DNA of 64,000 nucleotides from Bacteroidales bacterium (GTDB lineage Bacteria > Bacteroidota > Bacteroidia > Bacteroidales > JAADGE01), in NCBI GenBank assembly GCA_021108035.1, contig JAIORQ010000068.1:1-64000 (forward strand), read 5' to 3'. Position 1 is the first letter of the stretch. Every line of letters begins with the position of its first letter. The notes under the pieces are model-generated. The model made no database searches, was not told where the DNA came from, and saw only the letters and a program-made list of their open reading frames with translations. Shown one piece after another: positions 42,575 to 56,495 of this stretch. A program made the translations under genes and the position numbers.

Positions 42575-45181
42575 ATGACAAATGCAAAAAAAAATAAGAC
42601 CGGATTATTTAAATCTCGATCGAAAATAAATTTTGCCGTAAGCGGTTTTATTTTAGGAGCATTATTTCCGATGCTTGCATGGTCTTTATATTTATTAGCG
42701 AATGAATATTCGTTTTCCTTTTCAGGAATTTCTCAAATCCATATCGAAAACCCCTTAAATTACATCATTGATTTGACCCCCTTTATATTGGGTTTAATCT
42801 TTTATTTTATTTCTGATTTTTTTTTAAAAGAAAGGATTCAACTTAAAAAAGAATTAACCGAAAAAGATCAAATAATTGAACAATATTCAATTTTCGCAAA
42901 ACAAATCGGTGAAAAAAAAATTATATTTGATAACATTGAGACATCCGAAGAAGATACCCTAAATATTTCTCTGAAAAACATGAGAAAAAATTTTTTAACA
43001 GGTAAAAAAACTGAAACTAAACAAAATTGGGTTGCCGGCGGAAAAGAGATAATAACAGATATTATAAGGAAACATAATGATCTTAATGAATTAACCTATG
43101 ATGTATTAGTTAATCTTATAAATTATACAGATTCGGTACAAGGAGCATTCTATATATTCAATGATGAAGAGCAAATACTTGAAAATATTTCAACTTATGC
43201 TTATGACAGAAAAAAATTCGTTGATCAAAAATTTAAAATCGGAGAAGGATTAATTGGCCAAGCAGCATATGAAAAAAAATACATATACAGAAAAAGAATA
43301 CCGGAAACATACACTACATTATCATCCGGCCTCATTGGTGAACAAAAACCCAAAAGTTTACTGATAACACCTTTATTAGGAGATGAAAAAATTCAAGGAG
43401 TTATTGAAATTGCATCAGTAAAAGATGAGATTAATAAAGAAACTATTTCATTTCTAAATGAATTAAGTGAAATTATAGGACAAACAATATTTAATTTTAA
43501 AGCTAACTTAACAACTAAAAAATTACTCCGAGAATCGCAAACTTTAACTGAACAGCTTAAAAAAAATGACGAAGAACTCCGGAAAAATGCAAAAGAAATG
43601 GAGAAAACTCAAATTGAACTTCAAAGTTCAAATATTGAATTAGCAGAGAAAATTTCGGAAGTTGAGCAAGGACAAAAAAGATTAAATACATTATTGGAGA
43701 ACGCGTCTGAAGTAATTACTATATATAATAAGGCAGGGATAGTTCAATATGTAAGCCCGTCAATTAAAAGTATTCTTGGTTTTTCACCCGAAGAAATGCT
43801 TGGAATAAACCGTTTTGAAAGAGGAGATAAAATTCTGCAAGATGTATTTAATGAATTAATTCAAAAACCTGATATCATTAAAACCTTTGAATATCAATAC
43901 ACCAATAAAGATAAAAAAAGGCTGTGGCTTGAAACAAGCGGCAGAAACCTAATTAATAATCCCGCAATTAACGGCATTATTTTTAATACCAGAGACATTA
44001 CAATAAGAAAAGAAGCAGAAACGGCCAAAAGGCTGAGCAGTGAAATGCAAGCACTTTCTGAGAACAGTCCTGATATGATAATTCGTATAGGACTGCAAGG
44101 AGATTTCTACTATGCAAACCCAATGACCAAACAATTCATCGGAATTAATTCACACGATATTATAGGAAGTAACATTAATACTATAGATCTGGACGAGAAA
44201 ATTACAAACTTTTTTAAAGATGTTATTAATGATACAAAAATTGCCGAAAAAGAAATTCAAAAAGAAACAACTTTTAATATAAACAATATTAATCGTATTG
44301 TACAATTCAATGCTATTCCGGAATTTGACTCAGCCGGAAATGTAAGTACATTCTTATTAATAGCCCATGATATTACCGAAAGAAAAGAAATAGAACTGGA
44401 AATTGATAATAAAAATAAAAACATTACTGAGAGTATTAAGTATGCTCAAAGAATACAATCAGCAATTATCCCTAATTTAGATATTGTTAACAGATATTTG
44501 CCCGAATCATTCATTTTTTATAAACCAAGAGACGTTGTCAGCGGAGATTTACCTTGGTTCTTTTATAAAGAAAACGAAATATATTTGGCAGCCATTGATT
44601 GTACCGGACACGGGGTTCCCGGAACATTACTGTCATTTATCGGATATTTTTCATTAAACAATATTGTCAACCGTGAAGAAAAACTAAGTACAGGAGAAAT
44701 TTTAGATGAATTACATTATCAAGTAAGAAAAACACTAAAACAAGACTCTCCGGATTCAAAAGCAAGAGATGGCATGGATATTGCCTTATGTAAAATAAAT
44801 CATCAAGAAAATATTCTGGAATATGCCGGTGCTCACAGAGAGTTATTTTTACTGAGAGATAATGAAATTAAACGTTTTAGAGGAGACAGAAAAGCTGTGG
44901 GAGGTAAACCGATGGGAAAAAGAGAAGAAAAAAACTTTTCAACACACAAAATTAATATACAAAAAAAAGATAAAATTTTTATCTTTACAGACGGTTTACC
45001 GGATCAAATAGGAGGTGAAGACGGCAGAAAATATCAAGCCGGAAGGATCAGGGAACAAATTATTGAAAAAAATAATTTTTCAATGACAGAATATTATAAT
45101 TTCTTTGTAGATCAATTTTCGAAATGGAAAAAAGGATATAAGCAGATTGATGATATACTTTTAATTGGTATTGAATTCTAA
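42575..45181 (+). CDS. GAF-PAS-PAS-PP2C (SpoIIE) phosphatase, SiaA-like
   Basis: Two N-terminal helices (about 17-40 and 62-82) are followed by a GAF domain (about 165-310, GAFYIFNDEEQILENISTYA), coiled coil, PAS 1 (about 370-490, LLENASEVITIYNKAGIVQY), PAS 2 (about 495-610) and a SpoIIE-type PP2C domain (about 625-868). The phosphatase shows ESIKYAQRIQSAIIPNLDIV, KPRDVVSGDLPWFF, AIDCTGHGVPGTLLSFIG, ARDGMDIALC and FIFTDGLPDQIGG with metal-binding Asp residues. In Pseudomonas SiaA dephosphorylates SiaC; the SiaB and SiaC genes directly downstream (12 and 7 bases away) support the same role here, against phospho-SiaC. The input domains differ from SiaA. Confidence 0.9.
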   Translation: MTNAKKNKTGLFKSRSKINFAVSGFILGALFPMLAWSLYLLANEYSFSFSGISQIHIENPLNYIIDLTPFILGLIFYFISDFFLKERIQLKKELTEKDQIIEQYSIFAKQIGEKKIIFDNIETSEEDTLNISLKNMRKNFLTGKKTETKQNWVAGGKEIITDIIRKHNDLNELTYDVLVNLINYTDSVQGAFYIFNDEEQILENISTYAYDRKKFVDQKFKIGEGLIGQAAYEKKYIYRKRIPETYTTLSSGLIGEQKPKSLLITPLLGDEKIQGVIEIASVKDEINKETISFLNELSEIIGQTIFNFKANLTTKKLLRESQTLTEQLKKNDEELRKNAKEMEKTQIELQSSNIELAEKISEVEQGQKRLNTLLENASEVITIYNKAGIVQYVSPSIKSILGFSPEEMLGINRFERGDKILQDVFNELIQKPDIIKTFEYQYTNKDKKRLWLETSGRNLINNPAINGIIFNTRDITIRKEAETAKRLSSEMQALSENSPDMIIRIGLQGDFYYANPMTKQFIGINSHDIIGSNINTIDLDEKITNFFKDVINDTKIAEKEIQKETTFNINNINRIVQFNAIPEFDSAGNVSTFLLIAHDITERKEIELEIDNKNKNITESIKYAQRIQSAIIPNLDIVNRYLPESFIFYKPRDVVSGDLPWFFYKENEIYLAAIDCTGHGVPGTLLSFIGYFSLNNIVNREEKLSTGEILDELHYQVRKTLKQDSPDSKARDGMDIALCKINHQENILEYAGAHRELFLLRDNEIKRFRGDRKAVGGKPMGKREEKNFSTHKINIQKKDKIFIFTDGLPDQIGGEDGRKYQAGRIREQIIEKNNFSMTEYYNFFVDQFSKWKKGYKQIDDILLIGIEF

Positions 45182-45192
45182 AACAAAGCAGT

Positions 45193-45771
45193 ATGGACGG
45201 AAAAAATTCCAATAATGATTCTCTTAATTTTGTTTATGACTTTTATAAAAAAATGAAAAAAAGCAATATCAACCTCGCATATGAAGGTGAAATTTCTCAT
45301 GAAATTACAAAAGCTTTCAGCTCTTTGGCTGAAAGCCATATTGCAATTGATAATGAAACAAATTCATTACAAAGAAGAGTTTTTCACGTAATGGTTGAAT
45401 CTCTGCAAAATATAAGTAAACATTCTGCTGAGAGAAAAACACGATCTTCTATAATTGACGGACAAGGACTGTTTTTTGTTACTAAACATGAAAATGAATA
45501 TTGTATTACTACCGGTAATGTTGTTACGACAAAGGAAATACCTGATCTTGAAGAAAATTTAAAACAGATAAATACAAGTAATAAAATGAAATTAAAGGAA
45601 TTATACAAAACAAAAATAAAAAAAGGTCGTCTTTCAGACAAAGGCGGTGCAGGTTTAGGTTTCATTGATATGGCAAGAAAAACAGGAGAACAATTAATTT
45701 ATTCATTCTTGAAACTTAACGACAAAAAATCATATTTTATATTAACATCAACAATATCCAGAATAAAATAA
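45193..45771 (+). CDS. siaB: SiaB-family protein kinase (DUF6272)
   Basis: A 192-residue protein similar to SiaB, an atypical GHKL-like kinase that phosphorylates SiaC. Recognisable stretches are NFVYDFYKKMKKSNINLAYE, SHEITKAFSSLAESHIAID, RRVFHVMVESLQNISKHS (matching the Asn-box helix of HATPase-type kinases), then FFVTKHENEYCITTGNVV and DKGGAGLGFIDMARKTGEQL, the glycine-rich lid. It lies between the phosphatase and siaC with short spacings, so the three are expected to be one transcript. The call depends on the Asn helix, the GGAGLG lid and the context. Confidence 0.85.
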   Translation: MDGKNSNNDSLNFVYDFYKKMKKSNINLAYEGEISHEITKAFSSLAESHIAIDNETNSLQRRVFHVMVESLQNISKHSAERKTRSSIIDGQGLFFVTKHENEYCITTGNVVTTKEIPDLEENLKQINTSNKMKLKELYKTKIKKGRLSDKGGAGLGFIDMARKTGEQLIYSFLKLNDKKSYFILTSTISRIK

Positions 45772-45777
45772 TTAATT

Positions 45778-46167
45778 ATGCGAATAATAAAAATTGAAGG
45801 TACGGACGATACTCCTCAAGTTACATTAGATGCAAATCCTGAAAATCCGTTTATGGAAATTTCCGGAAGATCTTTACCGGAAGATGTTGTAGCATTTTAC
45901 GATCCTATTTTAGAATGGTTAGATGAATATGCTGAAAATCCACTTGAAAAAACAGTTTTAAATATAAAATTGGAATATTTCAATACTGCATCTTCAAAAC
46001 TTCTTTTAGACATTCTTCTGAAATTGGAAGATATGAATGACGCAGGTAAAGATGTTCTTGTAAGATGGCATTTTCCTGATGATGACGAAGATATGGAAGA
46101 AGCAGGAGAAGAATACGAAGACATTGTTGAAGTACCTTTTGAACAAGTAAGCTATTCTATTGATTAA
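45778..46167 (+). CDS. siaC: SiaC-family regulatory phosphoprotein (DUF1987)
   Basis: A 129-residue DUF1987 protein. In Pseudomonas, SiaC in the unphosphorylated form activates the diguanylate cyclase SiaD, and SiaB/SiaA add and remove a phosphate on a Thr. Here the motif KLEYFNTASSKLLLDI (Thr70 with Ser72/Ser73) is the likely phospho-acceptor segment. Other conserved parts are IEGTDDTPQVTLDANP, EISGRSLPEDVVAFYDPI and WLDEYAENPLEKTVL. The end is very acidic (PDDDEDMEEAGEEYEDI). No GGDEF protein is in the window, so the effector is unknown. It ends 108 bases before the TerB-like/ABC gene. Confidence 0.9.
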   Translation: MRIIKIEGTDDTPQVTLDANPENPFMEISGRSLPEDVVAFYDPILEWLDEYAENPLEKTVLNIKLEYFNTASSKLLLDILLKLEDMNDAGKDVLVRWHFPDDDEDMEEAGEEYEDIVEVPFEQVSYSID

Positions 46168-46275: not shown

Positions 46276-49200
46276 ATGAGTGAAGAAATTTTAAAAGCTC
46301 TTATGCAACTGTTTGCAATTATTGCAAAACAAGATGAAGGAGTTGTTCAACAAGAAGAAAAGTTTGTAATGACTTTTCTTGCTTCACAATTAAGCAAATC
46401 TCAAGTAAACGAATACATGGATTTGTTTATTAAAAATACTGAGAAAGAAGAAAAGAAAAGAAAAAGAGACGAAAAGAAAAAAACTTCAACATCCGGACCC
46501 GTAAAAATGGTTGATTCTGTCAGGGTAATGGGAATATGCAGGAAGATTAACAGAACTCTTAACCATAAACAAAAAGTTATCGTTTTAGCTCGTTTGTTCG
46601 AGCTTATTAATACCGAAAAAAAACTCTCTGAACTAAGAATGGAGATTATCTCTGTTGTTGCTGATGCATTTAATTTATCAAATACAGAATATAAAGAGAT
46701 TAAAGATTTTGTCATTAAAGACGACCACAGAGAACTTGATTCAGAATCAATATTAATTATTAACGATAAGGAATATGAACATCAAAAGGCACAAGTTATT
46801 CCTTCAGAAAGTTTACACGGAAGTGTTATTATACTCCAAATAAGAAGTGTCGATCTGTATTTTGTAAAATATACAGGTAAACAAGACGTATTTCTTAACA
46901 GTACAACTGTTTACAATAACAGAATTTATTTATTTGCTCCCGGTAGTGTTATTAAATTACCAAAGGGTAAACCGATTCATTACAGTGATATTGTTGCAAC
47001 TTTTATGGAAGATCTTGAAATATCAAGGCTTTCATTTATTGTTCGTGATTTACAATTTACTTTTAAAACAGGTGATATTGGTATAAGAAACATAAATTTC
47101 TCTGTCGATCACGGTAAACTTGTAGGAATTATGGGAGCCAGCGGTTCCGGAAAAACAACTCTGGTAAATGCTCTGTCCGGAATTAACAAACCCTCAGTCG
47201 GTTTTGTAAAAATTAACGGAATTGATCTGCACCATAACCCCGGTGATCTTGAAGGAGTTATCGGTTATATTCCTCAAGACGACTTGCTTATTGAAGAACT
47301 AACAGTTTTTCAAAATTTATACTACAATGCAAAGTTATGTTTCAAAGATAAAAATGATAAAAAACTTACTGCGCTTGTAATTAAAACCTTAAAAGATCTC
47401 GGTTTATTTGATAAAAAAGATCTGAAAGTAGGTAACCCGATGAATAAAACAATCAGCGGAGGACAAAGAAAAAGATTAAATATTGCTCTGGAATTAATCA
47501 GAGAACCTTCGATTCTGTTTGTTGACGAACCCACATCCGGGTTATCATCCAGAGACTCTGAAAATGTAATGGAACTCTTAAGTGAATTAACTCAAAAAGG
47601 AAAACTGATCTTTGTAGTTATTCACCAACCTTCTTCAGATATCTATAAAATGTTCGACAGAATGTTAATCCTCGATCAAGGAGGATACATGGTTTATTAC
47701 GGGAATCCGGTTGAAGCAGTATCGCATTTCAAAACCATTGATAATCAGGTCAATGCAGAAGCAGGTGAATGTGGTATGTGCGGCAATGTAACACCTGAGT
47801 TAATTTTTGATATTATTGAAGCCGAGGTTGTTGATGAATTCGGACAATATACTGAAATAAGAAAAATCTCTGCATCTGAATGGGAAAAACAATATTTAGA
47901 AAAGGTAGCTAAAGAAAATATTGAAGTTATTAAAGACGAACCACCGGCAAACTTAAATATTCCCGGATGGTTCAAACAATTCAGAATTTTCCTTACTCGC
48001 GACCTTTTATCAAAGATCAGTAATACTCAATATATTGTTTTGAATTTACTCGAAGCTCCTCTATTAGGTTTTATTCTTGCTTTCTTAATAAGATATATTT
48101 CTGATCCCAATTCCTCTGTATATGTATTTTTTGATAATGAAAATATACCTCCGTATATATTTATGAGTATTGTTGTTGCATTATTCTTAGGGTTAACAGT
48201 AAGTGCTGAAGAAATTTTCAGAGACAGAAAAATATTAAAAAGAGAAAAATTCCTTAACCTCAGCAGATCGTCATATTTATTGGCGAAAATTACAATATTA
48301 ATAGTTATTTCCGCTATTCAATCAATATTATTTGTTATTATAGGAAACTCAATACTCGGTATTCAAGGCATGTATTTTGAATATTGGTTGGTGCTTTTCA
48401 CTACATTTGTATTTGCAAACTTTATGGGATTGAATATTTCTTCGGCTTTCAATTCAGCTGTTACTATCTATATCTTGATACCTTTGCTGATGATTCCGCA
48501 GATGGCACTCGGTGGTGCGATGTTCAGTTTCGACAAACTGAACCGAGCAATAGGCAGCGTAGATAAGGTTCCTGTAATTGCCGATATAATGGCATCAAGA
48601 TGGGCATATGAAGCCCTAATGGTACAACAATTCCAAGAGAATAAATTCGAAAAACAATACTACATATATAATCAAGTAAAGAGTACAGCTAATTTTAAAC
48701 AAGACAAGTTAATACCTAAACTTTCCGAAAGCATTGAATCATTTGAAATTCTGCAAGATGAAATTAATGATAAAAAAGGAGATCATGATTCAATTGTTAA
48801 AATCCAAAAAACGGAATTAGCTCTGCTTAAAAATGAAATTACCAAGGAAAACAAACAAATAATAAAACTCGCAAAAAAACTTAAAACTCATAAAGCAGGA
48901 AACGGCCTTAAACAAATAAATTTTGATGTATATTACGATGACTTTGATGTTTTAGCCGCAAATGATCAAGAAGTTAAAAAAGCTCTTGTGATTCCGAATG
49001 AATTGATCAATAAATTGAACATCAATGAATACGAAATTGAAGAACACGGTTATAAATTAATGGATCTTCTTGAAAACTGGAAATCATTTTACTTGGCAGT
49101 ATATTCAAGTGCAAATGAACTTAAAGAAGAATTAATTGAATATCAAGATGAACAATCAAAAGGCTATTTTGTACGTTTCAGAAATAAGTTCCATAATGAA

Positions 49201-49530
49201 CATCTTGATGATATTGTAAGAAATATATATGAAAAAAATAAAATTTTGCGTTTTAATGATAAACTTATTCGACAAGAAGAACCTATTTATTTAGAACCTG
49301 ATGATTCAAATTTTATAGGAATAAGATCTCATTTTTATGCACCGAATAAACATTTTCTCGGTAAAAATTACAATACATTTTGGTTTAATGTTATCATAAT
49401 TTGGGCTATGTCGTTACTATTATATATCCCGCTATATTACGATCATCTGAGGAAAATTGTTAATTTCTTCGGGAACTTTAAATTCAGTAAAAATAAAAAA
49501 AATAAAAAAGTCGAAAATCAAGAGGATTAG
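46276..49530 (+). CDS. TerB-like/FHA-like fused ABCG-type transporter
   Basis: This 1084-residue protein combines unusual modules. Residues 1-155 form a helical TerB-like domain (LFAIIAKQDEGVVQQEEKFV and KINRTLNHKQKVIVLARLFE). A beta domain at about 160-245 has an FHA-like pattern. The ABC ATPase (about 260-480) has GIMGASGSGKTTLVNALS, TISGGQRKRLNIALELI and ILFVDEPTSGLSSRDSENV. Then a CxxC pair (GECGMCGN), and ABC2 membrane helices at about 580-770 with VVALFLGLTVSAEEIFRDRK. A long coiled insertion (about 790-980) precedes a final helix (FWFNVIIIWAMSLLLYIPLY). It is an ABCG-like half-transporter or exporter. The FHA-like module could read a phosphoprotein state from the Sia operon just upstream; that is inference. 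Confidence 0.85.
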   Translation: MSEEILKALMQLFAIIAKQDEGVVQQEEKFVMTFLASQLSKSQVNEYMDLFIKNTEKEEKKRKRDEKKKTSTSGPVKMVDSVRVMGICRKINRTLNHKQKVIVLARLFELINTEKKLSELRMEIISVVADAFNLSNTEYKEIKDFVIKDDHRELDSESILIINDKEYEHQKAQVIPSESLHGSVIILQIRSVDLYFVKYTGKQDVFLNSTTVYNNRIYLFAPGSVIKLPKGKPIHYSDIVATFMEDLEISRLSFIVRDLQFTFKTGDIGIRNINFSVDHGKLVGIMGASGSGKTTLVNALSGINKPSVGFVKINGIDLHHNPGDLEGVIGYIPQDDLLIEELTVFQNLYYNAKLCFKDKNDKKLTALVIKTLKDLGLFDKKDLKVGNPMNKTISGGQRKRLNIALELIREPSILFVDEPTSGLSSRDSENVMELLSELTQKGKLIFVVIHQPSSDIYKMFDRMLILDQGGYMVYYGNPVEAVSHFKTIDNQVNAEAGECGMCGNVTPELIFDIIEAEVVDEFGQYTEIRKISASEWEKQYLEKVAKENIEVIKDEPPANLNIPGWFKQFRIFLTRDLLSKISNTQYIVLNLLEAPLLGFILAFLIRYISDPNSSVYVFFDNENIPPYIFMSIVVALFLGLTVSAEEIFRDRKILKREKFLNLSRSSYLLAKITILIVISAIQSILFVIIGNSILGIQGMYFEYWLVLFTTFVFANFMGLNISSAFNSAVTIYILIPLLMIPQMALGGAMFSFDKLNRAIGSVDKVPVIADIMASRWAYEALMVQQFQENKFEKQYYIYNQVKSTANFKQDKLIPKLSESIESFEILQDEINDKKGDHDSIVKIQKTELALLKNEITKENKQIIKLAKKLKTHKAGNGLKQINFDVYYDDFDVLAANDQEVKKALVIPNELINKLNINEYEIEEHGYKLMDLLENWKSFYLAVYSSANELKEELIEYQDEQSKGYFVRFRNKFHNEHLDDIVRNIYEKNKILRFNDKLIRQEEPIYLEPDDSNFIGIRSHFYAPNKHFLGKNYNTFWFNVIIIWAMSLLLYIPLYYDHLRKIVNFFGNFKFSKNKKNKKVENQED

Positions 49531-49582
49531 AACAAAAAAGAAAAAAAGATAAAGTATTTTTTTTAGATTTTTAAAATTTTAA

Positions 49583-49590
49583 TACCTTTG
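49583..49590 (+). promoter_or_regulatory. -7 promoter element TACCTTTG
   Basis: It matches TAnnTTTG and lies 32 bases upstream of the ATG at 49622. It suggests that the lipoprotein and the following secreted protein have a promoter separate from the transporter. Confidence 0.55.
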
Positions 49591-49621
49591 ATTGTTAAAT
49601 GCCTCAAAAAATCAAACTAAT

Positions 49622-50521
49622 ATGGCAAAAAAGATTTTACTTTTTTTATCAATCATAACAATTTTAGCTTCATGCGGCAACGGAGGTAATGACGGTACTA
49701 TTGAAGGACCTGTGGAAGATGACAGTATTAACAGAGTAGAAATTGACCCTGATCAAATAAACGGACTCATCGAAAGTTTTCCTTCGCCTATTGAAATGGC
49801 AGCCACAATTGAAGATATGCAAGTACCTTATTCAAAAAAGAACTTAGTCCCAACTGAAACTGCTGCTGACTTTGATTCAAATTTTGAAAAAGCTTTAGGT
49901 TTGGGAATGTTAAGTGCTGATTTGGGATATTTAAATGTTTACGGCAGAAAAAATGCAATTGTTGAATATTTAACATCTATTAAACGAATAGCTGATGCAT
50001 TGGATATTGATCAATTTTTTGAATTTCAAACTTTAAAAAGATTAGCAACCAACAGTACAAATCTTGATTCTTTAATGTTCCTTTCCGTTTCAAGTTATCA
50101 CGATATGGATGAGCATTTAAGAGAGACCAGAAGAAGCGATTTAAGTGCATTAATGATAACAGGAGTTTGGTTAGAAGGCCAATATCTCGCAAGTAAAGTA
50201 AATCAATTTAAAAGTGATAAAAGAACTGAAGAAATTATTGTAGGACAAAAAGATATTTTAAAAGAATTAATGACTGTTCTTGACTTTTTCAATAACAAAG
50301 CACGTTTTAAAAAAATGAACAAAGATTTTTCAGACCTGTCAACTTTATACGATAACGTTAAAATTGAATTTATTGAAGGAGAAACTACAATAACTTACGA
50401 TCAAGATTCTATCCCGTTGATTCAACCCGGAGATCGTACAATTATACATTATACAGAACAAGATCTTAACAAGATATCAAATAAAATTATAAACATTCGT
50501 AACAATTTAATATCACTATAA
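49622..50521 (+). CDS. Lipoprotein next to the TerB-like/ABC transporter
   Basis: ATG 49622 gives the lipoprotein signal MAKKILLFLSIITILASCG; a TTG ten codons upstream would start inside the promoter. The acidic tether (DDSINRVEIDPDQI) is followed by a mainly helical domain: NFEKALGLGMLSADLGYLNV, EYLTSIKRIADALDIDQFFE, DEHLRETRRSDLSALMITG and a C-terminal helix pair. I recognise no family, although DGK/ADLGYxxxYG patterns are common in Bacteroidota lipoproteins next to such transporters. Its stop overlaps the ATG of the next gene (TAATG at 50519-50523), so the pair is translationally coupled. Confidence 0.75.
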   Translation: MAKKILLFLSIITILASCGNGGNDGTIEGPVEDDSINRVEIDPDQINGLIESFPSPIEMAATIEDMQVPYSKKNLVPTETAADFDSNFEKALGLGMLSADLGYLNVYGRKNAIVEYLTSIKRIADALDIDQFFEFQTLKRLATNSTNLDSLMFLSVSSYHDMDEHLRETRRSDLSALMITGVWLEGQYLASKVNQFKSDKRTEEIIVGQKDILKELMTVLDFFNNKARFKKMNKDFSDLSTLYDNVKIEFIEGETTITYDQDSIPLIQPGDRTIIHYTEQDLNKISNKIINIRNNLISL

Positions 50522-50982
50522 TGAAAAAAATAGCAATTCTTATAGCAATAACAAGTTTTTTCATTTTTGCACCTCAAGAAGAGGCAAAAGCACAATGCAA
50601 ACAACAAAGAGTATATCATTGCGCAAGGCAAGGAGGAAATGCAATCTATCTGCGTGATTTTAACACAAAATTAAAAGCAGTCAGATCAGCAAGAGATATT
50701 AACGGTAATAAATGGCCTGTTGTTTTAAACAGAGGTACAAGATATCGTTTTATTCTTTGTACTCCGAGAGGCTTTGGTAATGATGTGAAATTAACTCTGT
50801 TTGATACCAGACATCCTGAATCAAAACCTTGGAATTCAACCGAAAAAAGCGGAAGAGATATGTTTGACTTTGTTTGTGAAAGATCCGGTGTTTATTACAT
50901 TTCTATAAGGTTTAAGGAAGGCAAAGGAAAAAGAAAGACTTGTGCTGTCGGAATATTGTCCTTTGTAGGCAAAAATCAATAA
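50521..50982 (+). CDS. Secreted protein with PPC-like fold
   Basis: A 153-residue protein with signal peptide MKKIAILIAITSFFIFAPQ and an A-K-A-Q cleavage region. The mature chain is beta-rich: NRGTRYRFILCTPRGFGNDV, KLTLFDTRHPESKPWNST, DMFDFVCERSGVYYISIRFK. That arrangement resembles a prepeptidase C-terminal (PPC) bacterial beta domain, which forms jelly-roll binding modules. Four Cys (CKQQ, HCARQ, LCTP, VCERS) and one more near the end suggest disulphides. It is the last gene of the operon and is followed by a strong terminator. Confidence 0.7.
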   Translation: MKKIAILIAITSFFIFAPQEEAKAQCKQQRVYHCARQGGNAIYLRDFNTKLKAVRSARDINGNKWPVVLNRGTRYRFILCTPRGFGNDVKLTLFDTRHPESKPWNSTEKSGRDMFDFVCERSGVYYISIRFKEGKGKRKTCAVGILSFVGKNQ

Positions 50983-51005
50983 TATACAATATCTATATCT
51001 TTAAT

Positions 51006-51046
51006 AAAGAGAGAGTGTATGTAACTACACTTTCTCTTTATTTTTT
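51006..51046. terminator. Strong hairpin terminator
   Basis: A 14-bp stem (aaagagagagtgta / tacactttctcttt, with one mismatch) and a 6-base loop are followed by attttttatt on the plus strand. The minus-strand side also carries A/T-rich flanks, so it may end the glucan phosphorylase transcript too. Confidence 0.85.
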
Positions 51047-53821: not shown

Positions 53822-55399
53822 TTATGCTTCGTATTTCTTAGTTAATATCTCATTTATTTCATTCAGATACTTTTCGTCAATCTTATTATTTATTACTGAA
53901 AATCTATAATTATGATATAATTCTATAATCTTTAATTCAGTTTCTTTTTCAAGTTTTGACAAATCTAACATTAAAGCATTATTTAAATCATTTGGCTCAA
54001 ACTTTTTCAAACCATCTCCATATTCTCTTCTATTATCATCAAATATTTGTTGAGCAACATCTGTCAATAAATACGCAAATAATAAATCTATATTAAGATT
54101 ATTGAATAAACTTTTTGTAGGATAGATACAGTGGAAAGTTGTCAAATTACTTATTCCTGCTTCATTCCTAATAAATTTCAAACCCGACCTATTAAAAACT
54201 CCTACCCAAATTGGTGACGGTGGACGGTTTTCTAATGAATACCAAGGATTACGCTTTGAAGTTAAATATTTTTTATTTATTTCGTTATTTTCTCCAACTT
54301 TAATGTAGGAAACAACATCTTCACTATTTGAGTTCTCTGTTCCATTAAATAGGAAAATATTAGCATTATTTTCTTTTAGAGTTAAAAAATGTTGATTTGT
54401 AAAGAAAGGGCTTTTAACATCTTTCGACCTCGTTATGCAGGGTAATAAATTTGATTTTTTAATACCGTATTTTATTGCTTTTTCTCGATTAAATGTAAAA
54501 TACATGTTTGCTCCTGTTGCAATACCTCTAACAACTTTTGCGACATTATTAAATGGGATAAGGTTTTTATAATTCTTACTCTTTTGTTTTTGATAATACG
54601 CTCTCCATTTAATATTAGGGTCTATTTCTTCTTTATTTAATTCTATCTGACCTGATAGGTTTGGATAATTTTGTATTATGTTAGAAATATTATCTAATTC
54701 TTTTCTATTTGTGATTGTAGAAAAATTAATTTTTGAATAATTATCATCTTTTGCAAGAAGCAAGATTGCACTTGTTGTTAAAGCATTATCAAAAACATTT
54801 TCTTTAAAATCAAATATGAAGATATGTCTTAATAGATTTGATTTTAAAAGATACTCTTTTACATATTTACCATAATCCGAATTCAAAAACTCAGATGGAA
54901 TGATGTAGGCTAATCGCCCTTTATCTTTGAGTTGATAAATTGATTTTAAAAGAAACAATGTGTAAATATTTGTAAATCCACTCAGTTGTATATTTAACCT
55001 TTTTTTGATTTCAGTAAGTGTTTTTATATTCTCGTAATCGTGGAATTTTAAATATGGTGGGTTACAAACAATAGTATCATATTTATTATTCCAATCATTG
55101 AATAAATAATCTTCAAGGTGTAATTCTAAATTTGGATTCTCTTGAAAATTATTCTTTGCAGTTTCAAATATTATGTCATCAATATCAAAACCTGTAATTG
55201 CAATATCTTCTCTTTGAATTAATGCTTTTCTCGTAAAAACACCTAGACCAAAAGCAGGTTCAAGTAATGTCGTAACATATTCAGCTTTCAGAAGCCAATC
55301 AACCATTAATTGGGCAATCGGCTCTGGTGTAAAAAATTGTGCGTATTTTTTACGATGTGATAAACTAACTTTTTTTGTATATTCTTTTTCTAAAATCAT
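53822..55399 (-). CDS. Type II DNA adenine-N6 methyltransferase
   Basis: An N6-adenine methyltransferase of the Eco57I/TaqI-type class. The SAM motif I is TLLEPAFGLGVFTRKAL, the catalytic motif IV is YDTIVCNPPYLKFHDY (NPPY), and TIYSLYQLKDKGRLAYIIPSE-type post-motif segments follow. The C-terminal half is the target-recognition region. Two ATGs are possible: 55414, inside the restriction gene, or 55399, one base after its stop (TAAGATG), which I prefer. It follows the putative restriction enzyme and presumably protects its site. The downstream repeat lies three bases behind its stop. Confidence 0.9.
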   Translation of the reverse strand: MILEKEYTKKVSLSHRKKYAQFFTPEPIAQLMVDWLLKAEYVTTLLEPAFGLGVFTRKALIQREDIAITGFDIDDIIFETAKNNFQENPNLELHLEDYLFNDWNNKYDTIVCNPPYLKFHDYENIKTLTEIKKRLNIQLSGFTNIYTLFLLKSIYQLKDKGRLAYIIPSEFLNSDYGKYVKEYLLKSNLLRHIFIFDFKENVFDNALTTSAILLLAKDDNYSKINFSTITNRKELDNISNIIQNYPNLSGQIELNKEEIDPNIKWRAYYQKQKSKNYKNLIPFNNVAKVVRGIATGANMYFTFNREKAIKYGIKKSNLLPCITRSKDVKSPFFTNQHFLTLKENNANIFLFNGTENSNSEDVVSYIKVGENNEINKKYLTSKRNPWYSLENRPPSPIWVGVFNRSGLKFIRNEAGISNLTTFHCIYPTKSLFNNLNIDLLFAYLLTDVAQQIFDDNRREYGDGLKKFEPNDLNNALMLDLSKLEKETELKIIELYHNYRFSVINNKIDEKYLNEINEILTKKYEA

Positions 55400-55400
55400 C

Positions 55401-56495
55401 TTAAAAATCTTCAATATTTAAAAGTGATTTTAAATTTTCAATATCTAAATATGCAGTCCCTTTTTCAAATGTAACATAAAACAATAAGCGTCCTCTTCCC
55501 ATTTCTCTTCTTACACTATTATGTTCAGGTTCGGTAACTTTATATGCTATCTGTTCGGTTTTTCGTGTATTTATTTTTATTGTAGTCTTATTCTGATTTT
55601 TAATGTCTTGACTAATCTCGTAATACTCACCCTCTTTATCGGGTTCTGTAATTAATTTAAGAATGTTTTTAAATGAGATACCATAAGATTTATCAAAAAA
55701 GACTTGAAAGTAATAATGTGGGACATTAAACTTCTCAGTCCATTTATATACAACCTTAACATCTTCAATTTTTGGTGTAATACTTAAATAATCACGTTTT
55801 TGAACAACTGTAATATTTTCTTTTAATTCCTTGAAAAGCAATGATAATTCTTGTAGTCTTTCTGTTGCTTTCCAACTTGGTCTTCTAAAAGTTACAGCAT
55901 TAATAGTTTCTTCATTAATTCCATTAAGAATTTCAATAAAATGTTTCTTTTTAGGATGTTCTAATAAATCATTGTATTCAGAGAGTATTTTATCTTTTAC
56001 CTCAATTGCTTTTTCAAGATGATTTTTTGTTCGGCTTTGCATTTCAGCTTCATACTTATCAATTAAAAAGGCACTTGAACGAATTTCCAAACCTGCAATT
56101 GCTTTCTTTACATAATTTTCAATTTCAACGTGGTTTATTTTGCTTATATCATATCCAAGAGCAATGTCAAAGTCCGTCTTTTGAAACACTAATAAATCAG
56201 GTCTTTTTCCAATAGTATCTAATTCGTCTTGAAACTCATTGTAAAATTTATCAAAACCTTCATCGCCAGCAATAAGGTCGTCTGATTTCCCATATCTAAC
56301 TGCAACATAATTTTTAGAAGTTTCATTAATAGCCCTGAAAATTAAATCTTCCGCCCAATCTCCTTGCTCTTTGTTTGTAATAAAATTTGATGATGCTTGG
56401 GTGGGTGGTGATGTTTTTTCTCTATCAATAGAAAAATTAACTATTGATGTAGGTATCAATTTAATAAGTTCTCTTATTTCCTCAAAATATGTCAT
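55401..56495 (-). CDS. Type II restriction endonuclease, probably AccI-like
   Basis: The product is 364 residues, with [20 protein letters not shown] and then a potential PD-(D/E)xK core in [15 protein letters not shown]. Length and the GDWAED and RPDLLVF segments are reminiscent of the AccI family (GT^MKAC cutters), but I cannot verify that, and the family name is tentative. The close link to the methyltransferase (stop to preferred ATG, one base) marks an R-M operon with the endonuclease first. No controller gene is present, although a palindrome covers a promoter upstream at 56618. Codon and AT use are not clearly different from neighbours. Confidence 0.7.

Follow-up and report, generated by a model that had tools for sequence, protein, structure and literature searches.

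A TerB/FHA-like/ABCG transporter as the likely output of a SiaABC phospho-switch in Bacteroidales

What does the phosphoprotein SiaC act on when the gene behind it encodes a transporter? The question is raised by a locus in a 64,000-nucleotide stretch of Bacteroidales bacterium DNA (assembly GCA_021108035.1, contig JAIORQ010000068.1, positions 1 to 64,000; hereafter the window), in which genes for a SiaA-like phosphatase, the kinase SiaB and SiaC are followed by those for a fusion of a TerB domain and an FHA-like beta domain to an ABCG-type transporter, for a lipoprotein and for a small secreted protein (Table 1). In Pseudomonas aeruginosa, unphosphorylated SiaC, whose fold is STAS-like (PMC7647112, PMC8457831), binds and activates SiaD, a diguanylate cyclase, with its helical stalk as the site of contact, and phosphorylation of T68 prevents this binding (PMC8457831). 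In the lineage of the window the transporter is likely the output of SiaABC, and our preferred explanation, to which as a whole we give a probability of about 0.6, is that the six genes form a single signalling-to-envelope operon in which SiaC would directly switch the transporter, as MlaB does MlaF.

All elements of a SiaABC partner switch are encoded together at the locus: a SiaB kinase, SiaC, a PP2C-type phosphatase and a phosphorylatable threonine motif. The SiaA-like protein has a Pfam SpoIIE match at 2.6e-15 and an NCBIfam SiaA match on its C-terminal half at 7.8e-46, the latter under its equivalog cut-off. The threonine of the SiaC motif, YFNTASSK, is the equivalent of P. aeruginosa T68, and this motif or its variant YFNTSSSK is kept in all aligned SiaC proteins save the divergent one of locus L115. 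The likeness to P. aeruginosa SiaABCD thus takes in a SiaA of the PP2C type, the SiaB kinase, the phosphothreonine motif of SiaC, the gene order, and the presence of an output gene directly after siaC; the difference is that SiaD is missing from that place, and the TerB/FHA-like/ABCG transporter and two envelope proteins replace it.

Genome-wide searches returned 100 distinct transporter loci besides that of the window, and in the transporter tree 53 rows belong to the window clade (clade 1), 23 to a second, paralogous clade and 25 to a remainder. Among loci with enough flanking sequence, to which all synteny counts refer, the window-clade transporters have SiaC as a neighbour in 52/52 cases, SiaB in 51/51 and a PP2C protein in 46/49, together with homologues of the lipoprotein (47/47) and of the secreted protein (37/37). 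The gene order of the window, siaA-siaB-siaC-ABCG-lipoprotein-secreted protein, is found again at identities as low as ~50%, which excludes chance; the part of it from siaC onward, which a sequence-only reading of the window had singled out for comparison with other Bacteroidota, is therefore a conserved arrangement. Cultured relatives with the locus include Marinilabilia salmonicolor, Labilibacter, Plebeiobacterium and Natronoflexus.

A different arrangement is found in the second clade, where the genes for lipoprotein, secreted protein and ABCG follow one another in that order, 9/19 loci have a convergent SiaC/SiaB pair downstream, and no PP2C gene adjoins the transporter (0/19). These SiaC and SiaB proteins belong to a subtype separate from that of the window, the SiaC subtype being present in 33/60 related genomes; by a hand classification, its presence or absence agrees with that of the second transporter clade in 55/60 genomes (Fisher 2e-11). 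At two loci, L059 and L078, a clade-1 transporter has the other SiaC/SiaB subtype, divergently oriented, as its neighbour, an apparent replacement of the usual siaABC. Locus L115, from the remainder of the tree, has a divergent SiaC/SiaB pair with a PP2C gene. Taken together, the second arrangement, L059 and L078, and L115 indicate that the link between Sia genes and transporter arose or was re-made more than once.

The association extends to whole genomes. Among the genomes of 60 relatives, 38 encode both the transporter family and SiaC and the other 22 encode neither, with no discordant case (Fisher p = 7e-17; 9e-12 when each family is represented by a single genome; neither value corrects fully for phylogeny). 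For a control of similar prevalence, the NiFe hydrogenase, presence does not follow the transporter in this way (22/38 versus 8/22, p = 0.18). In an even sample of 296 genomes from the phylum, the transporter occurs in 7 genomes (two with the distant form only) and SiaC in 17, and all 7 are among the 17. Three of these 7 genomes, all from one family (G108, G205 and G245), have a single SiaC each, and it adjoins the transporter. The window genome has further SiaC genes; those that we viewed (L152 and L165-L174) include several solitary genes, others fused to SiaB and a tandem triplicate (L169), with no recognisable output gene.

SiaD, the known target of SiaC, can be ruled out as the output in the 38 SiaC-bearing relatives, since none of them encodes a GGDEF domain; outside this group, SiaC-bearing genomes that lack the transporter have GGDEF domains in 10/10 cases. 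The proposal of the sequence-only reading that transport is under the control of the neighbouring Sia genes is supported by synteny, by the independent second arrangement, by the 60/60 co-occurrence and by the absence of the usual target, and the link is much firmer than could be seen from the sequence alone.

The gene directly after siaC in other lineages gives this proposal a context. There, a helical stalk with the common motif Y..L...Y..LL....KITRIGD..Q.KL is encoded directly after siaC, at the N-terminus of a GGDEF protein (L155 6187-7023, L161 4994-5758 and L162 5023-5517, the last with a broken frame) or fused to a histidine kinase (L153 6091-7155, L160 2022-3065), a SpoIIE domain (L159 5967-7016) or a membrane anchor (L156 5297-5773); it also stands alone beside another gene (L157 5706-5963, L158 5503-5802). 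The shared motif makes it possible that the stalk is a general SiaC-docking module. Given the variety of stalk-bearing genes, it appears that the place behind siaC is kept for an output whose identity can change; in the lineage of the window the transporter fills it.

Several observations weigh against SiaC acting on the transporter. GGDEF domains are almost absent from the whole order (1/60 genomes), so that their absence alongside SiaC is partly a lineage trait; the window genome has 19 SiaC family matches, and hence many other SiaC genes; among the most divergent transporter paralogues, the remainder of the tree, Sia genes adjoin the transporter in just 1/22; and a profile of eight stalks gave no convincing match to a SiaD-type docking stalk in the transporters, so that any contact with SiaC must differ from that made by SiaD. 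The pairing of transporter and Sia genes, as the sequence-only reading saw it, therefore stands for the window clade and falls for the most divergent paralogues. By eye only, and without statistical support, a TerB helix (K90-I91-x-R93-x5-Q99) resembles the SiaC-contact residues K77, V78, R80 and Q86 of SiaD.

Two of these points speak for the alternative of co-expression only, according to which a common operon and a common physiological occasion (an envelope or surface change) unite the genes, and SiaC acts on another target and never contacts the transporter: the docking motif was not found in the transporter, and since the other SiaC genes viewed in the window genome mostly lack such a partner, SiaC must have other targets. 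We nevertheless regard this alternative as unlikely, because two arrangements involving two SiaC subtypes, the 60/60 co-occurrence and the genomes with a sole SiaC exceed what operon inertia would lead one to expect, and because the position behind siaC is taken by the SiaC target in Pseudomonas and by SiaD-like genes in lineages other than that of the window.

If SiaC does bind the transporter, its N-terminal module is where contact would probably be made. The TerB domain, which the sequence-only reading had recognised together with its fusion to an ABCG-type transporter, scores 25.8 bits in Pfam against a curated cut-off of 24.4 (29.1 bits was also scored) and is matched in 38/39 transporter orthologues; its helical part gave a weak Foldseek match to 2h5n (PG1108, whose function is unknown). 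In the AlphaFold model built from the 39 orthologues for residues 1-250 (predicted local distance difference test score 88, predicted template modelling score, pTM, 0.86), seven helices are followed by an all-beta domain at residues 159-235. Against the Protein Data Bank (PDB), Foldseek returned FHA domains as nearly all of the first ~43 matches, with E-values of 0.02-0.5, none below 0.02, and probabilities mostly of 0.8-1.0, in keeping with the FHA-like character predicted for residues 160-245.

The shape of this domain is not accompanied by the residues of a phosphothreonine reader. Pfam FHA (PF00498) matched none of the 39 orthologues and none of the distant members, and hhalign gave no profile match to the canonical FHA domains found in the genus of the window, which carry IGR, SxxH and GSTNG. 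Column counts over 101 homologues, with residues matched by eye, show that the GR, SxxH and S-T-N-G residues of the phosphate clamp are not conserved; conservation in the region is seen at G201, N208, G223 and D238. Because an FHA-like fold is thus predicted without a family match or conserved phosphothreonine-binding residues, we take the beta domain to be FHA-like in shape and probably a docking or spacer domain rather than a phospho-reader.

This bears directly on a second alternative, in which the FHA-like domain recognises the phosphothreonine of SiaC and thereby gates the transporter, as FHA I of Mycobacterium tuberculosis Rv1747 binds pThr237 of Rv2623. The fold itself and the precedent of Rv1747, an FHA-ABC transporter under the control of phosphothreonine recognition (PMC5549992), speak for it, and it is what the sequence-only reading had suggested for phospho-SiaC. 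With no Pfam FHA match, no profile match and no conserved Arg/Ser/Asn clamp, and with phosphorylation of SiaC T68 preventing rather than promoting its binding to SiaD (PMC8457831), it is improbable, and we reject a phospho-reading FHA domain in the form proposed.

Gene content, the conserved gene order, co-occurrence, the lack of GGDEF and the exchange of the output gene are shown by the data; from these we infer direct SiaC binding, its site and its sign, and the accessory roles of the envelope proteins, along the following lines. SiaA as phosphatase and SiaB as kinase would set the phosphorylation of the conserved SiaC threonine in response to signals received by GAF and PAS domains. In one of its two forms, most likely without the phosphate, SiaC would dock on the transporter, probably at the cytoplasmic TerB/FHA-like module, and would switch the ATPase of the transporter; both envelope proteins may assist on the periplasmic side, working with the large loop of the transporter. 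We also used AlphaFold to fold one artificial chain that ran from SiaC through the 37-codon spacer, with Q or W in place of stop codons, into residues 1-250 of the transporter, and in-frame relatives served as paired rows. The result, for which there is no interface score, had a pTM of 0.68, between the values we estimate for no contact (~0.52) and for a confident complex (0.78).

The working model is taken from MlaFEDB, in which the STAS protein MlaB binds and regulates the ABC ATPase MlaF and the phosphomimetic T52E weakens binding (PMC7367683). In both systems an ABC transporter would be under the control of a STAS-fold protein whose phospho site is a threonine; they differ in that the transporter here is an ABCG-type half transporter, not an MCE system, and that dedicated kinase and phosphatase genes adjoin it, whereas phosphorylation of MlaB has not been shown.

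A last alternative, that the transporter is a sensor reporting the envelope or transport state to SiaA and SiaB through its cytoplasmic module, the Sia output lying elsewhere, fits the same synteny, and ABC exporters are known as sensors for signalling proteins in other bacteria, but it is very improbable given that SiaA has its own GAF and PAS domains, that a further membrane GAF protein is encoded upstream, and that the clade-2 transporter stands beside SiaB and SiaC without PP2C, which suggests that SiaC makes the contact.

The lipoprotein and the secreted protein, whose reading frames share one base (TAATG), carry their own Sec-type signals, so that neither needs the ABC transporter to cross the inner membrane. 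Both were considered as its cargo; this is disfavoured on the same ground, and they are more likely accessories. Because the pair adjoins the transporter in both clades, 3' of it in the window clade and 5' in the paralogous one, the three genes form a constant core. The lipoprotein has a clear lipobox (LASC), no family match in Pfam or NCBIfam and no credible structural relative in a sequence-profile search of the PDB; for the secreted protein, neither Pfam, NCBIfam nor the PDB gave a match, and the sequence profile gave nothing credible. The coupled lipoprotein and exported partner are as the sequence-only reading described them, with the qualification that "disulphide-rich" was generous for a mature protein with five cysteines, several of which are lost in divergent homologues.

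Assignment of the transporter to the ABCG type rests on a nucleotide-binding domain (NBD) followed by a transmembrane domain (TMD), on TIGR00955 (5.8e-77, below its subfamily cut-off) and on PDB matches to ABCG2, ABCG5 and ABCG8. The NBD has a Walker A motif (GASGSGKT at 287) and a signature motif (SGGQR at 394). The CxxC pair already noted from the sequence is the sole such motif and is identical in 101/101 homologues; two such pairs in an ABCG dimer could form a four-cysteine metal or redox site. Also borne out is the long, partly coiled insertion of ~290 residues (about 746-1035) that precedes the last transmembrane (TM) helix. In eukaryotic ABCG proteins the loop between TM5 and TM6 is far shorter. 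With those proteins (ABCG2, ABCG5/G8, White) the window transporter shares the NBD-TMD order and clear sequence similarity, and it differs from them in its N-terminal TerB and FHA-like domains, the CxxC after the NBD and this loop.

Distant homologues from another class (L145 5193-8870, L146 6704-10609 and L147 4923-8528; 1201-1301 amino acids) likewise have TerB and a long, coiled insertion, and CxxC is retained in L145 and L147 and lost in L146. Their region between TerB and the NBD is longer and, judged by eye, may hold further FHA-like units; this longer N-terminal region would be in line with an architecture common to them and to FHA-ABC transporters, of which Rv1747 is one. Rv1747, with its kinase PknF, resembles the present system in having an FHA-type domain N-terminal to an exporter-type NBD and TMD, and a kinase gene in the same operon. 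Here, however, there is one FHA-like domain without phosphothreonine-binding residues, with TerB in front and a long periplasmic loop, the kinase is of the Sia rather than the Hanks type, and two envelope partner genes are added.

The features are collected in Table 1; the three reading frames from the transporter to the secreted protein lie where the sequence-only reading had placed them. A homologue of the HAMP/GAF protein holds the same place in many relatives, as seen by locus comparison. The hairpin after the operon is supportive only, as 2 terminator-like sites were found against 2.2 expected in shuffles. Farther downstream, at 53822-56495 on the minus strand, overlapping genes look by eye like a restriction-modification pair; one of the two carries NPPY, a motif that is typical of adenine-specific DNA methyltransferases.

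Table 1. Features of the Sia-transporter locus, with positions in the window
Feature	Positions	Strand	Evidence
Membrane HAMP/GAF protein, possible sensor, upstream of SiaA	40437..42542	+	GAF_2 2.6e-16
SiaA-like: membrane region, GAF, two PAS, C-terminal SpoIIE/PP2C phosphatase	42575..45181	+	Pfam SpoIIE 667-867, PAS, GAF
SiaB family protein kinase	45193..45771	+	NCBIfam NF038262 163.7 bits (cut-off 85); Pfam DUF6272
SiaC, STAS-like phosphoprotein	45778..46167	+	Pfam SiaC 1.3e-38
TerB/FHA-like/ABCG transporter, 1084 amino acids	46276..49530	+	Open reading frame, Pfam, NCBIfam, AlphaFold model, Foldseek
TerB domain, residues 1-148, seven helices	46276..46719	+	Pfam TerB 8-143; AlphaFold model helices
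FHA-like beta domain, about residues 157-240, without phosphothreonine-binding residues	46744..46995	+	Foldseek; column counts
ABCG nucleotide-binding domain	47041..47745	+	Pfam ABC_tran residues 271-421, 3.5e-31
CxxC motif, residues 499-502, between NBD and TMD, cytoplasmic	47770..47781	+	Homologue alignment
ABC2_membrane region, residues 568-786	47977..48633	+	Pfam ABC2_membrane 4.6e-22; hydropathy TM segments
Long TM5-TM6 insertion, about residues 750-1034, predicted periplasmic, partly coiled-coil	48523..49377	+	Hydropathy segments 728-746, 1035-1053
Lipoprotein, helical, unnamed family	49592..50521 (likely true start ATG 49622)	+	Lipobox ILASC
Small secreted protein, signal peptide, probably beta-rich, unnamed family	50521..50982	+	Open reading frame; homologues beside clade-1 loci
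Terminator-like hairpin after operon, 17-pair stem then T tract	51003..51042	+	Hairpin scan

In the open-licence literature we found neither a TerB/FHA-like ABCG protein nor SiaC with a transporter. For the role of SiaC (DUF1987) outside Pseudomonas, only the modulation of adjacent proteins has so far been proposed, by the authors of the SiaC work (PMC8457831), and the lineage described here offers SiaC without GGDEF together with one transporter family that adjoins and co-occurs with it. Whether a partner-switching module has been rewired from making cyclic di-GMP to the direct gating of an ABC transporter, with SiaC and transporter paired in two or more separate arrangements, is in our judgement evenly balanced. 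The locus makes testable an idea that was raised, not shown, for MlaB, namely that reversible threonine phosphorylation of a STAS protein may gate an ABC transporter.

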